Positions 878 to 5,565 of a stretch of DNA of 64,000 nucleotides are shown here, one piece after another. This DNA comes from Gaiellaceae bacterium (GTDB taxonomy: Bacteria > Actinomycetota > Thermoleophilia > Gaiellales > Gaiellaceae). Position 1 is the first letter of the stretch; every line of letters begins with the position of its first letter. The notes under the pieces are model-generated. The model saw nothing but the letters and a program-made list of their open reading frames with translations. It was not told where the DNA came from and searched no databases. The position numbers and the translations under genes were made by a program. The DNA is taken from the NCBI GenBank assembly GCA_030446625.1, contig JAUJMY010000001.1, forward strand, positions 25,191 through 89,190. Direction: 5' to 3'.

Positions 878-1714
878 TTGCTCGCAGCGGTGCTCGCCCT
901 TGCGGCGAGCGTCTCGTGGGGAGTCGCCGACTTCCTCGGCGGCCTCAAGAGCCGCACGCTGCCGGTGCTCGTCGTCCTCGCGCTCGCGCAGCCCGTCGGT
1001 CTGCTCCTCGTCGGGATCGTCGTCGTCGCCGGCGGCGCGGGGACGCTGACGCGGGAGGCGCTGTGGGCGGTCCCGGCGGCGCTGCTCGCGACGGCGGGGA
1101 TCGCCGCGTTCTACCGCGGGATGGCGATCGGGACGATCAGCATCGTCGCGCCGATCGCCGCGTCCGGCGCCGCGATACCGGTCGTCGCCGGGGTCGCGCT
1201 CGGCGACCGCCCGGGCGCGCTTCAGCTGCTCGGCTTCCCGCTCGCCGTCGCGGGCGTCGTGCTCGCCTCGTACGAGACCGGAGGCGAGCTCGGCCGCGCG
1301 GGCGTCGCGGCGGGCGTCCCGTGGGCGCTGCTGGCGGCGATCGGCTTCGGCGGCTACTTCGTGCCGATGCACGAGGCGAGCGAGAGCGACTTCCTCTGGG
1401 CCGCGCTCGTCTTCAAGGCGTCCGTCGCCGGGCTCCTCGGCGCGGTTTACGCCGTCGTGCGCCCCGCCGCGTACCTCGGCCGCGCGAACCTGCTCACGAT
1501 CGTGGTCATCGCGATCTTCGACTCGGGCGGGAACCTGTTCTACGCCGCGTCCGCGAGCCTCGGCCTCGTCAGCGTCGTCTCGGTGCTCGCGTCGCTGTAC
1601 CCGGTGACGACGGTGGCGCTCGCATGGCTCTACCTGCGCGAAAGCGTCACCGCCGTTCAGCGCGTCGGCGTCATGACCGCCCTCGCCGGAGTCGTGCTCG
1701 TGACCGCAGGCTAG
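878..1714 (+). CDS. EamA/DMT-superfamily membrane transporter
   Basis: A 278-residue, very hydrophobic protein with about ten predicted membrane segments in two similar halves, as in EamA (drug/metabolite) exporters. Examples are the glycine-rich segments near residues 60-120 and the C-terminal VSVLASLYPVTTVALAWLYL stretch, which is typical of the second EamA repeat. It starts with TTG immediately after the upstream stop, so it is probably co-transcribed and translationally coupled. Its last bases overlap the end of the convergent ArsR-type gene by four bases. The substrate is unknown. Confidence 0.75.
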   Translation: MLAAVLALAASVSWGVADFLGGLKSRTLPVLVVLALAQPVGLLLVGIVVVAGGAGTLTREALWAVPAALLATAGIAAFYRGMAIGTISIVAPIAASGAAIPVVAGVALGDRPGALQLLGFPLAVAGVVLASYETGGELGRAGVAAGVPWALLAAIGFGGYFVPMHEASESDFLWAALVFKASVAGLLGAVYAVVRPAAYLGRANLLTIVVIAIFDSGGNLFYAASASLGLVSVVSVLASLYPVTTVALAWLYLRESVTAVQRVGVMTALAGVVLVTAG

Positions 1715-2040
1715 CCGAGCGCTGCGCGCAGCGCCGCGATCGCGTCGGGCACGAGCCGGTAGTACGCGTTCGTGCCGCGCCGGCTCGACTCGACGAGGCC
1801 GGCTTCGCGCAGAAGTCGCAGGTGGTGTGAGATCGTCGGCTGCGAGAGCTCGAACGCTCCCGTCAGGTCGCAGACGCAGACCTCGTTCGCGGCCGCGAGC
1901 CGGTTGACGATCGCGACGCGCGTCGGATCCGCGAGCGCCTTGAACCGCGCCGCGAGCTCGGTCCGCGCATGCTCGTCGAGCGGCGGGGTCTCGGGCCCGC
2001 AGCAGATCGTCGGCAGCACCGGAAGCGTCTTCATTGACAT
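1711..2040 (-). CDS. ArsR/SmtB-family metal-sensing repressor
   Basis: A 109-residue winged-helix repressor. The N-terminus holds a CC pair (residues 13-14); FKALADPTRVAIVNRL is the ArsR signature; CVCDLT in the alpha-3/recognition region carries the CxC thiol ligands typical of As(III)- or Cd/Pb-sensing members; SQPTISHHLRLLREAGLV is the recognition helix. The ATG at 2040 (or 2034) lies inside an inverted repeat (2032-2049), and TACATT sits five bases upstream of ATG 2040, so it probably represses its own leaderless transcript and the divergent cysteine-rich mini-gene. The inducing metal is inferred to be thiophilic only. Confidence 0.85.
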   Translation of the reverse strand: MSMKTLPVLPTICCGPETPPLDEHARTELAARFKALADPTRVAIVNRLAAANEVCVCDLTGAFELSQPTISHHLRLLREAGLVESSRRGTNAYYRLVPDAIAALRAALG

Positions 2041-2062
2041 CCATCAATGTAACACGTAGCGT
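2032..2062. promoter_or_regulatory. ArsR-type operator and divergent promoter
   Basis: CATTGA (2032-2037) and TCAATG (2044-2049) form a perfect inverted repeat with a six-base spacer, resembling ArsR/SmtB operators. On the plus strand TTGACA (2035-2040) is a consensus -35, followed after 16 bases by TAGCGT (2057-2062), a fair -10. On the minus strand TACATT (2051-2046) is a -10 for arsR. A bound repressor would cover both promoters. Confidence 0.65.
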
Positions 2063-2101
2063 CTTTTCCATCGAAGTGCGTCGATGAAGGGAGGTGCGGA
2101 C

Positions 2102-2152
2102 ATGGCCGGTTGCTGCGACTCCGGCTGCGGTTGCGGCTGCGACTGCTGCTGA
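2102..2152 (+). CDS. 16-residue cysteine-rich peptide, metallothionein-like candidate
   Basis: A short open frame encodes MAGCCDSGCGCGCDCC: seven cysteines in sixteen residues, in CC, CxC and CxxxC spacings suited to soft-metal thiolate binding. A near-perfect Shine-Dalgarno AAGGGAGGT (2087-2095) lies six bases before the ATG. It is the first gene on the transcript expected from the ArsR-controlled divergent promoter. Nothing else in the window has such composition. The metal-chelating or metal-scavenging role is an inference from composition and position; it could instead be a leader peptide that senses cysteine supply. A hairpin follows at 2162-2183. Confidence 0.5.
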   Translation: MAGCCDSGCGCGCDCC

Positions 2153-2161
2153 GGCACGGCT

Positions 2162-2183
2162 GCGGAGGAACCCGGGCCTCCGC
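2162..2183 (+). terminator. Hairpin after the cysteine-rich mini-gene
   Basis: GCGGAGG (2162-2168) pairs perfectly with CCTCCGC (2177-2183) across an eight-base loop. There is no T-tract, so it may be a weak terminator, an attenuator or an mRNA 3' stabiliser separating the mini-gene from the esterase. Confidence 0.3.
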
Positions 2184-2207
2184 GGCCGGCGTCGTAGGAT
2201 CGCGCGG

Positions 2208-3230
2208 ATGCTGCCGTGGTCCATCGAGTTCGCGGGCCGGCTCGAGGAGCTCGCGTTCGAAAGCGAAGCGCTGCGCGGGAACCGCCTCGGCGACCCGCAC
2301 GTGCGCCCGCTGTGGGTGTACCTGCCGCCGGGGTACGACGACGAGGCCGACCGGCGGTATCCGGCCGTCTACGTCATCCAGGGCTACACGGGGCAGCTCG
2401 ACATGTGGCGGAACCGCACCGCGTTCAGGAAGACGGTGCCGGAGCTGTTCGACCAGCTCTTCGCGCGGCGCGAGGCGCCGCCGTGCGTGATCGTCTTCGT
2501 CGACACGTGGACGTCGGTCGGCGGGAGCCAGTTCGTCGACTCGCCCGGCACGGGCCGCTACCACACCTACCTCTGCGACGAGCTCGTCCCGTTCGTCGAC
2601 GCGGGCTACCGCACGCTGCCCGCGCGCGAGCACCGCGGCATCGCCGGGAAGTCGAGCGGCGGCTACGGCGCCGCGCTGACGGCGATGCTGCGGCCGGACG
2701 TCTTCGGCGGCTTCGCGAGCCACGCCGGCGGCGGCCTGTTCGAGGTCTCGATCCGGCCGTTCTTCCGCGTTGCAGTGCGCGAGCTCCGAGAGCGCTACGG
2801 CGGCACGTTCGAGGGCTTCTTCGACGACTTCCGCTCGCGCCCCGCGTTCACACGCGAGACCGACATCCACCTCCTGCTCCAGTACGGGTTCGCGGCGGCG
2901 TACTCGGCCGACGCCGACGGCACCGTGCGGCTCCCGTACGACCTGCAGACGGCGGAGGTGATCCCGGACCTCTGGCAGCGCTGGCTCGAGTGGGACTATC
3001 CGACGCTCGTCCCGCGCCACGCGAACGCGCTGCGCTCGATGCGCGCGATCTACGTCGACTCCGGCACCCGCGACGAGTGGTACCTCGACCTGACTGCGCT
3101 CTGGCTCGAGCGCGAGCTGACGAACCTGCGCGTCCCTGACCTGCACGTCGAGCTCTTCGACACGACGCACGCCATGATCGAGTACCGCTACCCGATCGGG
3201 TTGCGTTACCTGGCGGAACGCCTCTCGTAG
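2208..3230 (+). CDS. Alpha/beta-hydrolase, putative esterase family (esterase D/Ag85-like)
   Basis: A 340-residue protein with the alpha/beta-hydrolase esterase layout: PLWVYLPPGYDDE strand, FVDTWTSVGGSQFVDS oxyanion region, nucleophile elbow GKSSGGYGA (Ser near 149), and a late DTTHAMIEYRYP segment that likely carries the catalytic His. The ATG at 2208 was chosen because TAGGAT (2195-2200) stands seven bases upstream, giving a leaderless start; an in-frame extension to 2094 would overlap the mini-gene and is low-complexity Ala/Arg. No signal peptide is seen. The 3' end overlaps the convergent cupin gene by 25 bases. The substrate is unknown. Confidence 0.75.
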   Translation: MLPWSIEFAGRLEELAFESEALRGNRLGDPHVRPLWVYLPPGYDDEADRRYPAVYVIQGYTGQLDMWRNRTAFRKTVPELFDQLFARREAPPCVIVFVDTWTSVGGSQFVDSPGTGRYHTYLCDELVPFVDAGYRTLPAREHRGIAGKSSGGYGAALTAMLRPDVFGGFASHAGGGLFEVSIRPFFRVAVRELRERYGGTFEGFFDDFRSRPAFTRETDIHLLLQYGFAAAYSADADGTVRLPYDLQTAEVIPDLWQRWLEWDYPTLVPRHANALRSMRAIYVDSGTRDEWYLDLTALWLERELTNLRVPDLHVELFDTTHAMIEYRYPIGLRYLAERLS

Positions 3231-3751
3231 GCGGGGAGCCCGCCCGGGTACGGCCCGAACCGGTATGCCCGCCCCGCGTACGCCTCGTCGCCGCTCGACG
3301 TCTCGTTCTCGACGCTCGCGCCGCGCTTGCGCGCGGTCTCGTCCACGGCGTAGACGAGCGACGACCCTTTCTGCCGGGGACCGCACGCGACGTAGACAAA
3401 CGGTGCGTCTCCGGCCGCAACGAGCACGTGCGGCGTCTCGGGTGGGCAGTGGAAGTAGTCCCACTGCCGCAGCGGTCGCTCCTGTCCCTCGACGATGACC
3501 AGTCCCTCGCCCGCGAGCACGAAGAAGCCCTCCTGCACTCCCTCCGCGTGGTACATCGACCCGGCTTCGCCCGGCTGGAGGACGTTGACGTTGAACCCCA
3601 TCGTCTCCCACTGGCGGCCGTTCTCGAAGAAGCAGCACGCGCCCATCCCCTCCGCGTGCATCCAGCGGCCGTCGCGGGCGTTGAGGACGAACCAGCCGTC
3701 GTCCTCGGGCGCGAGCCCGGCTTCGTCGCGCACGAGCTTCGCCTCCGGCAT
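3206..3751 (-). CDS. Cupin-domain protein
   Basis: A 181-residue protein with a single conserved beta-barrel: PGEAGSMYHAEGVQEGFFVLAGEGLVIVEGQERPL is split over cupin motif 1 (His near 68, Glu near 74) and DYFHCPPETPHVL forms motif 2. The family includes metal-dependent isomerases, oxygenases and sugar-binding proteins, so no reaction is assigned. Its ATG overlaps the stop of the upstream ychF-like gene by one base (ATGA type), indicating translational coupling. The 3' end runs into the convergent esterase. Confidence 0.75.
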   Translation of the reverse strand: MPEAKLVRDEAGLAPEDDGWFVLNARDGRWMHAEGMGACCFFENGRQWETMGFNVNVLQPGEAGSMYHAEGVQEGFFVLAGEGLVIVEGQERPLRQWDYFHCPPETPHVLVAAGDAPFVYVACGPRQKGSSLVYAVDETARKRGASVENETSSGDEAYAGRAYRFGPYPGGLPAYERRSAR

Positions 3752-4671
3752 CAGACGTTGAACCGGATGTTCAGCACGTCGCCATCCTGCACCTCGTATG
3801 CCTTCCCTTCAAGGCGCTCGTCGCCGTGGCGGCGCGCCTCGGCGTGCGAGCCGTGCCGGACGAGGTCTTGCCACTGGATCACCTCGCAGCGGATGAACCC
3901 GCGTGCGATGTCGGAGTGGATCGCGGCGGCCGCGTCGAGCGCGTTCTTGCCCCGGCGCAGCGTCCACGCGCGCGTCTCCTTCTCCCCGGCGGTGAAGAAG
4001 CTGAGCAGGTCGAGCGCGGCGAAGAGCCGCTGCGCGATCTCGCCGAGCGCCGACTCGCCGTCGCGGAACGCGGCCGCCTCGTCCTCGTCCAGCTCCGCGA
4101 GCTCGGCCTCGAGCTTCGCGTCGATCCCGTTCGGCCCGTTCTCGACCGCGAGCAGGGGCTTCGTCGTCAGCGGCTCGAGCTCGGGCGGGAGCCCGTCGCG
4201 GTAGTCGCGCAGCGGCGCTCCCCCCTCGAGGTGCTGGAGCACGCGCTCGAGCTGGGCGACCTCGTTCCGCAGCGCACGGTCACCCGACCTCGCCTGCTTC
4301 TGCACGCGCTCGAGGCGGCGCTCGACGTGGTCGCGATCGGCGACGAGGAGCTCGAGCTCGAGCGTCTCGAGGTCGGCGGCCGGGTCCGCGGCCGCCGAGT
4401 ACCCGTCGAGCACCGCGAGCAGCGCGTCGACCTGGCGGAGGTTCCCGAGCAGGGCCGGCCCCGTCCCCGGCACGTCGACGACGCGAACGGCTGCGGGCGT
4501 GATCTTTCGTGCCTTCACCACCGCCGCGACCCGCTCGAGCCGGTCGTCCGCGAGCGGCGCCATGCCGACGTTCTCCTTGCCGAAGCCGCCCCCGTCGGCG
4601 CGCGTGAGGGCGGTGAACAGGCTCGTCTTCCCGCACCCGGGCAGCCCGACGATCCCGACCGCGAGCGCCAC
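3751..4671 (-). CDS. YchF/Obg-type GTPase-like protein with TGS domain
   Basis: A 306-residue protein. The P-loop is GLPGCGKTS (residues 9-17), the G3 element DVPG near 66, followed by a coiled segment (residues 115-150). The C-terminus is clearly YchF-like: FFTAGEKETRAWTLRRG, AAIHSDIARGFIRCEV and VQDGDVLNIRFNV form the TGS/YchF C-domain. It is about 55 residues shorter than usual and lacks the KGASxGEGLGN loop after G3 and a recognisable NxxE G4 motif. It starts with GTG 18 bases after the sigma-factor gene and is probably co-transcribed with it. Nucleotide preference is uncertain. Confidence 0.8.
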   Translation of the reverse strand: MALAVGIVGLPGCGKTSLFTALTRADGGGFGKENVGMAPLADDRLERVAAVVKARKITPAAVRVVDVPGTGPALLGNLRQVDALLAVLDGYSAAADPAADLETLELELLVADRDHVERRLERVQKQARSGDRALRNEVAQLERVLQHLEGGAPLRDYRDGLPPELEPLTTKPLLAVENGPNGIDAKLEAELAELDEDEAAAFRDGESALGEIAQRLFAALDLLSFFTAGEKETRAWTLRRGKNALDAAAAIHSDIARGFIRCEVIQWQDLVRHGSHAEARRHGDERLEGKAYEVQDGDVLNIRFNV

Positions 4672-4689
4672 GCCGCCGAGCTCGCCGCG

Positions 4690-5286
4690 CTAGGCCGCGT
4701 CGGCGCCGGACGCGTCGCCGCCGATCTGCTTCTGCAGCGAGACGAGCGCCCGGTGCTGGAGCGACTTGATCGCGCCGTCGGTCTTCCCGAGGATCGTCGC
4801 GACCTCGCCGTTCGAGAAGTTGAACACGAACTTGAGCGTCAGCACCTGCTGCTGCTCGCCGGAGAGGCCTTCGATCAGCTCGAGCATGCTCTGGCGGCCG
4901 ATCGACTTCATCGCCTCGGATTCCGCGGACGGCTCCTCCTCGCCGTGCGGCTCCGGCACGTCCTCCTCCGGCTGCCAGCGCCGGTTCGCGCGGAAGTGGT
5001 CCATCGTGAGGTTGTGCGCGATCCGGAAGAGCCACGCCGAGAACGGAGCCGACTGCCAGCGGAAGCGACCGATCGACTCGAGCATCTTCAGGAAGGTCTG
5101 CGTCGTCAGATCCTCGGCGTCGTGGCGGTTGCCGACGCTCATGTGGAGATAGCTGTAGATCCGGTCGAAGTGGAGGAGGTAGAGCTCCTCGAGCGCATTC
5201 CGGTCGCCGGCCTGGGCGCGCTCCACGAGCTTCCGCACCTCCTCGGTGGGGGCGGACGCACGCGCCGCGGTCGTGCCTTCCGTCAT
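4690..5286 (-). CDS. Sigma-70 family RNA polymerase sigma factor (ECF-like)
   Basis: A 198-residue sigma factor with region 2 (ALEELYLLHFDRIYSYLH, then DAEDLTTQTFLKMLE and AWLFRIAHNLTMDHFR, residues 30-110) and region 4 (LSGEQQQVLTLKFVFNFSNGEVATILGKTDGAIKSLQHRAL, split here as the helix-turn-helix near 140-185). An acidic linker (EEDVPEPHGEEEP) joins them. No anti-sigma gene is adjacent; the neighbour downstream is the YchF-like GTPase. It starts at ATG 5286. The regulon cannot be inferred. Confidence 0.88.
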   Translation of the reverse strand: MTEGTTAARASAPTEEVRKLVERAQAGDRNALEELYLLHFDRIYSYLHMSVGNRHDAEDLTTQTFLKMLESIGRFRWQSAPFSAWLFRIAHNLTMDHFRANRRWQPEEDVPEPHGEEEPSAESEAMKSIGRQSMLELIEGLSGEQQQVLTLKFVFNFSNGEVATILGKTDGAIKSLQHRALVSLQKQIGGDASGADAA

Positions 5287-5337
5287 CGCGAAGACGATGC
5301 CCCGCAGGGCGCCGCGTGTAACGGAGACCGATGCGCG

Positions 5338-5565
5338 CTACGCGCCGAAGCCGACGCGGCTGTCGCGCGCGAAGCGCTTGACGTAGATGACGCGCTTCAA
5401 CGCGATCGCGTAGCTGCCGTCGTCCACCTCGAGCGAGACCGTGTCCTGCGTGGCCGACCCGAGCGCGCGCTCGAGCTCGTCCGCCTGCTCGTTCGAGACG
5501 AGCTCGCTCACCGTCTGCCCGCCGTCGAACGCGATCTCGATCCGGACGCGGTCGCCGTCAGCCAC
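5338..5565 (-). CDS. Small DUF3107-like protein
   Basis: A 75-residue protein that resembles the short actinobacterial DUF3107 family: RVRIEIAFDGGQTVSEL, then a helix (NEQADELERALG) and a closing strand KRVIYVKRF. It overlaps the end of the upstream epimerase gene by eight bases, so it is probably translated with it. The function of the family is unknown; assignment is by pattern only. Confidence 0.55.
   Translation of the reverse strand: MADGDRVRIEIAFDGGQTVSELVSNEQADELERALGSATQDTVSLEVDDGSYAIALKRVIYVKRFARDSRVGFGA

Follow-up and report, generated by a model that had tools for sequence, protein, structure and literature searches.

A thiol chelator peptide is a known kind of molecule. The bacterial metallothioneins (SmtA/BmtA and the mycobacterial MymT) are small, Cys-rich and devoid of aromatic residues, and SmtA is regulated by the ArsR-family repressor SmtB. 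Phytochelatins are short repeated-Cys peptides that chelate Cd and As(III) (PMC9917255), and tetracysteine tags (CCPGCC) are engineered sequences that bind organic biarsenicals (PMC3665623). The peptides that we describe here have 13–24 aa (9–24 aa when finds outside the family are counted), are not expected to fold and lie in arsenic loci, whereas bacterial metallothioneins have about 50 aa or more; and they are encoded as ORFs under purifying selection, whereas phytochelatins are made by enzymes from glutathione. With the tetracysteine tags they share paired vicinal Cys residues around a short turn, and outside the family CCPPGCC and CCPSGCC occur, but the exact tag CCPGCC was not seen among them and binding of free arsenite has not been shown. 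What is new is their size, their encoding by a gene and their place in arsenic loci; the open-access papers searched do not describe such peptides from ars loci, and we found no match at E<=1 in Pfam/NCBIfam for five peptides of 20–24 aa, and no match in the PDB for the one peptide compared, short queries having little power in both searches. We propose that the peptide is probably an ArsR-controlled, ribosomally made and arsenite-sequestering micropeptide, in effect a miniature metallothionein, its binding of metal being inferred.

The gene was found in a stretch of 64,000 nucleotides analysed as a whole (the window), from an assembly of 2.7 Mb in 33 contigs. The features that matter here are as follows.

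1711..2034 (alternative start 2040), minus strand: arsR, an ArsR/SmtB repressor with N-terminal CC and CVC, from profile matches
2033..2048, no strand assigned: palindrome O1, ATTGA-CATCCA-TCAAT, ArsR-type, at the arsR start, from sequence
2069..2086, no strand assigned: palindrome O2, CATCGA-AGTGCG-TCGATG, ArsR-type, directly 5' of the peptide Shine–Dalgarno sequence, from sequence
2087..2095, plus strand: Shine–Dalgarno sequence AAGGGAGGT, 6 nt before the ATG
2102..2152, plus strand: peptide ORF MAGCCDSGCGCGCDCC, 16 aa, 7 Cys, stop TGA
2154..2190, plus strand: G+C-rich hairpin 3' of the peptide stop, -28.2 kcal/mol, terminator-like without a T run
2208..3230, plus strand: putative esterase (PF00756), the next downstream gene in the window
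3751..4671, minus strand: YchF-like GTPase (PF06071), in most relatives adjacent to the peptide gene and convergent with it

The preliminary description had read 2102–2152 as a 16-residue peptide with seven Cys behind a well-spaced Shine–Dalgarno sequence, and had credited the repressor with CC and CxC thiol motifs; translation to MAGCCDSGCGCGCDCC and a stop, the spacing of AAGGGAGGT, and the CC and CVC of ArsR bear this out. It had also placed a promoter beneath an ArsR-type inverted repeat, and of this the repeats are present, two in number, but a sigma-70 scan gave no promoter at threshold; a peptide promoter can be deduced from the operators and the spacer, but has not been shown. The hairpin after the stop recurs in the sister loci L007 and L033, and other strong hairpins occur in many of the remaining loci; no T-tailed terminator was found behind the peptide gene, and no known RNA element was matched in Rfam at 1700–2400.

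The window ArsR matches HTH_5 at 1.2e-17 and HTH_metalloreg (NF033788) at 3e-30 in a profile search, and its start at 2034 is likelier than that at 2040 because relatives conserve the MK start. Cys13, Cys14, Cys55 and Cys57 are invariant in 21 aligned homologues. CgArsR binds arsenite via Cys15–Cys16–Cys55 (PMC11868830), and by layout only the window protein would appear to have an arsenite-type site of the same sort (Cys13, Cys14 and Cys55). An O1-like site is present in 35 of 36 peptide loci and a strict O2 in 24, being missing from the other 12; a strict O2 also stands in both loci where arsM (L022) or arsI/cadI (L041) takes the place of the peptide, and in none of nine loci without an ars gene at the divergent position. 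Such tracking of the divergent ars gene by O2 is the outcome predicted by ArsR control of the divergent transcript. Control of the peptide gene by ArsR is therefore supported as far as conserved palindromes can support it, and binding of ArsR at O1 and O2 is inferred from them. Tail-to-tail arsR pairs, with a diverged second copy, were seen in L027 (G081) and L031 (G071).

ArsR-type proteins occur, at a loose threshold, in 100 of 103 family genomes. We inspected 48 orthologous loci (ArsR score of at least 105 bits, window included), and 37 of them carry a tiny Cys-rich ORF divergent from arsR at the peptide position. The encoded peptides start at ATG (31), GTG (5) or TTG (1), and the 36 loci whose upstream sequence is complete all have GGAG 4–10 nt 5' of it. 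Cys accounts for 41% of residues; F, W and Y are absent from all 37 peptides, large hydrophobic and aromatic residues as a whole are nearly missing (there is one Ile), 33 peptides end in CC, and 23 contain two CC pairs separated by 1 to 4 residues (e.g. CCPDGCC, CCPAGCC). The peptide, acidic and about 40% Cys, is likely disordered. Across 13 close pairs, which are not fully independent, pS was 0.35 vs a pN of 0.076 (pN/pS ~0.2), and at 80 aligned Cys positions the codon was identical in 69, synonymous (TGC/TGT) in 10 and lost in one. Such an ORF was found in 36/36 tested peptide regions vs 0/3600 dinucleotide shuffles and 0/36 reverse strands. Judged from these comparisons alone, the peptide gene is real and is most simply read as being under selection for the protein it encodes, and the peptide sequence varies while its Cys residues stay; actual translation is inferred. 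Gene finders probably overlook the gene because it is very small.

These results also bear on the wider claims of the preliminary description, which would have fallen had no frame or start been conserved at orthologous arsR loci; the frame, the start region, the Shine–Dalgarno sequence and the high Cys content are kept in the 37 loci, and the short Cys-rich frames divergent from arsR that it had proposed to look for in relatives were found, with 13–24 codons and 5–9 Cys. As to a conserved Cys pattern, the high Cys content, the Cys pairs, the CC end and purifying selection on Cys hold, but the exact pattern is not conserved. Its suggestion that the system may be widespread is upheld inside the family, with only a sparser recurrence in other Actinomycetota families.

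The neighbourhoods of the peptide gene are conserved with arsenic genes, namely arsC, arsM, arsI/cadI and an aquaporin gene, and the position of the peptide is taken by arsM in L022 and by arsI/cadI in L041. The precise position that the peptide gene occupies in relatives is filled in L214 (3151–3930) and L022 by a gene for an ArsM extended at its N-terminus by a Cys-rich segment (GCGCSADDCAENGCC). Of the 103 family genomes, 16 encode Acr3 and 87 do not; it occurs in one of 37 peptide genomes (G085) vs seven of 11 orthologue genomes without the peptide. This contrast gives a Fisher p of 3e-5 by genome, and is not significant by genus (p = 0.19), so that it is partly due to relatedness. For ArsB there were only a few weak matches, none among the 37 peptide genomes and one in G066, which has one of the outside layouts; the pump survey covered Acr3 and ArsB and no other efflux families. 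Arsenite made by ArsC in the absence of Acr3 and ArsB demands another handling route, which fits a sequestering peptide.

Pattern scans for a Shine–Dalgarno sequence, start, CC and stop in 103 family, 399 class and approximately 400 phylum genomes (overlapping sets), with frames judged by eye and most matches discarded as out-of-frame Leu codons, added 11 Actinomycetota genomes whose tiny Cys peptides are arranged differently from the main layout. Ten of the 11 have them at arsenic loci (arsR, arsM, arsI/cadI, aquaporin or arsC) and one behind a MerR gene. Since the patterns required a CC end, that end is not independent evidence in these peptides, which are arranged as follows.

L206: arsR divergent from MAASCCDESCCPEGCC
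L207: arsM-arsR divergent from MRIDGPCCPPGCC
L208: arsR divergent from MNEGCCPSGCC
L209: arsR, an arsM-arsN2 fusion, MCPCGCGCC
L210: arsR then MTDPCCGGDPGCC
L211: aquaporin then MQLDCCDECGGDDCC, arsR divergent
L212 and L213 (one genome): arsR-arsM-MTPVSECDCGGACC
L216: MCEECPPGCCGPGCC divergent from arsR
L218: MDPDCCPPGCC divergent from arsR
L229 (also L226): ArsI/CadI then MMRSGCCDEGCCEPGCC, divergent from arsR
L228: MerR-family gene, then MMSSVPCDCPPECCPPDCC and MTDGGCPCCGCPCGDCGGSGSR

Identities as ArsM (NF008823), ArsI/CadI (NF041414) or MIP exceed curated cut-offs in L207, L212, L214, L041, L229 and L211; the ArsM of L209 and the regulator of L228 fall below the cut-off, their best matches being ArsM and MerR-group models. 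The L209 ArsM (4356–5516) is fused to an ArsN2-like acetyltransferase, and its CC end lies directly 5' of the MCPCGCGCC ORF. In a poorly resolved tree of 177 ArsRs, nine changes of the peptide label are required, at least four of them forced by supported branches, and the association therefore covers several ArsR lineages. Strict and relaxed scans of 80 named arsR loci, chiefly from Streptomyces, Mycobacterium and their relatives, and of 40 loci at class level were positive only in clade members, G066 and Jiangella muralis, which indicates a layout that is clade-rich and not universal. In the cultured strain J. muralis DSM 45357 (L094, 3566–3900), which suits experimental work, arsR is divergent from an ORF of roughly 65 codons that holds two CC motifs (MDPYLPETMAAERRRD...) and is followed by MDCCDDQITDCCDETGCC. 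Plasmid ArsR matches were less than 60% identical, and a candidate in Mycolicibacterium (L123, MTASTPSPATANCCCPRCC) was discarded, as it sits within a larger gene.

We are close to certain of the gene and of its arsenic context; sequestration of arsenite as its function we regard as probable. We suggest that, without arsenic, ArsR at O1 and O2 would keep arsR and the divergently transcribed peptide gene silent. Arsenite, arising from ArsC-reduced arsenate or from uptake, would bind the ArsR cysteines and open the promoter, so that the peptide would be made in quantity; its vicinal Cys pairs and C-terminal CC would chelate arsenite as As(III) thiolates, and may thus buffer cytoplasmic arsenite where the Acr3/ArsB pumps are missing. 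Induction, the identity and binding of the metal, and protection are all inferred, and ‘metallothionein-like’ is likewise an inference. Points against sequestration are the rarity of Acr3 in the family as a whole, the few peptides that hold just 4 or 5 Cys, the 12 loci without a strict O2 and the want of a T-tailed terminator.

It is formally possible, though in our judgement unlikely, that the peptide handles arsenic as a partner and not as a sink, as a thiol chaperone or redox partner that passes As(III) to ArsM/ArsI or thiols to ArsC. The gene often adjoins arsC, arsM or arsI/cadI, the peptide closes an arsR-arsM operon in L209 and L212 whose ArsM likewise ends in CC, and in L022 the ArsM with the Cys-rich N-terminus replaces it; against this, most peptide loci lack arsM, no more than 18 of 37 have a recognisable arsC, and the sequence is too variable for a fixed protein–protein contact. 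We also doubt, rather strongly, that the micropeptide serves soft metals at large (Cd, Zn, Hg, Cu, Sb) and is not specialised for arsenic. Thiol clusters do bind many soft metals, Cd sensors occur among ArsR-family repressors, and the tandem pair of L228 follows a MerR-family gene, so that the metal may not always be arsenic; but arsenic-type genes (ArsR, ArsC, ArsM or ArsI/CadI) are present at the orthologous loci and at ten of the 11 outside ones. Both a handling role with ArsM/ArsC and a broader soft-metal role remain open. In L228 (1830–2500, G601) the regulator has a MerR-type dyad promoter, and the tandem tiny ORFs behind it are possibly a second, MerR-controlled group of micro-chelators.

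Polycysteine attenuators exist in mycobacteria (Canestrari 2020, as cited in PMC9094748), and a Cys-rich leader peptide, on whose Cys codons ribosomes stall to control a downstream gene, could look much like the window ORF, with its runs of CC codons and a co-directional gene some 56 nt on, beyond a hairpin. The mycobacterial ORFs are likewise very short, with runs of Cys codons, and from Actinomycetota, but they precede operons that they control and are leaderless according to the title of Canestrari 2020, whereas the ars-locus peptides have a Shine–Dalgarno sequence (in 36/36 testable loci) and usually no downstream gene. Of 36 loci, 32 have an antiparallel gene after the peptide and four a co-directional one (the window and three unrelated cases, with unrelated genes), one further locus being a contig end; in other arrangements the peptide gene closes its operon. 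We therefore argue for a free-standing gene, and reject the attenuator as a general function; it is largely refuted and highly improbable. Usually a YchF-like GTPase gene comes next, its end facing the peptide gene, and the stop codons overlap in about 10 loci; in the window the esterase and a cupin gene stand between, and the esterase is probably unrelated, since other peptide loci have none at that place. Neighbour counts are approximate because genes were called by codon position, and the YchF assignment is itself profile-based. The window YchF-like GTPase is divergent (193 bits vs a TIGR00092 cut-off of 279), yet throughout the family it stays next to the ars locus. A chance ORF, for which only the fit of the Cys codon TGC to G+C-rich DNA and the very short frame would speak, is contradicted by conservation, by selection on Cys and by the shuffles, and we reject it as next to impossible.

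Finally, we see it as an evenly balanced question whether these peptides (9–24 aa, vicinal Cys pairs, CC end) are a class of encoded arsenic-binding micropeptides unknown to date, recurring in Actinomycetota arsenic loci, able to replace efflux pumps and forming a natural counterpart of the engineered tetracysteine–arsenic pair. Whether bacteria have dedicated arsenic-binding peptides is now directly testable with a synthetic peptide, and the peptides supply short sequences, candidates for arsenic binding, that could be of use in sensors and in water treatment. If the proposal is true, some 16 codons suffice to encode a minimal chelator, gene callers can overlook such a gene across a whole bacterial group, and these genes would rank with the smallest protein-coding genes for which comparative evidence is strong and a function can be guessed. 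It would also mean an unrecognised branch of bacterial arsenic resistance that works by sequestration rather than by efflux or methylation.
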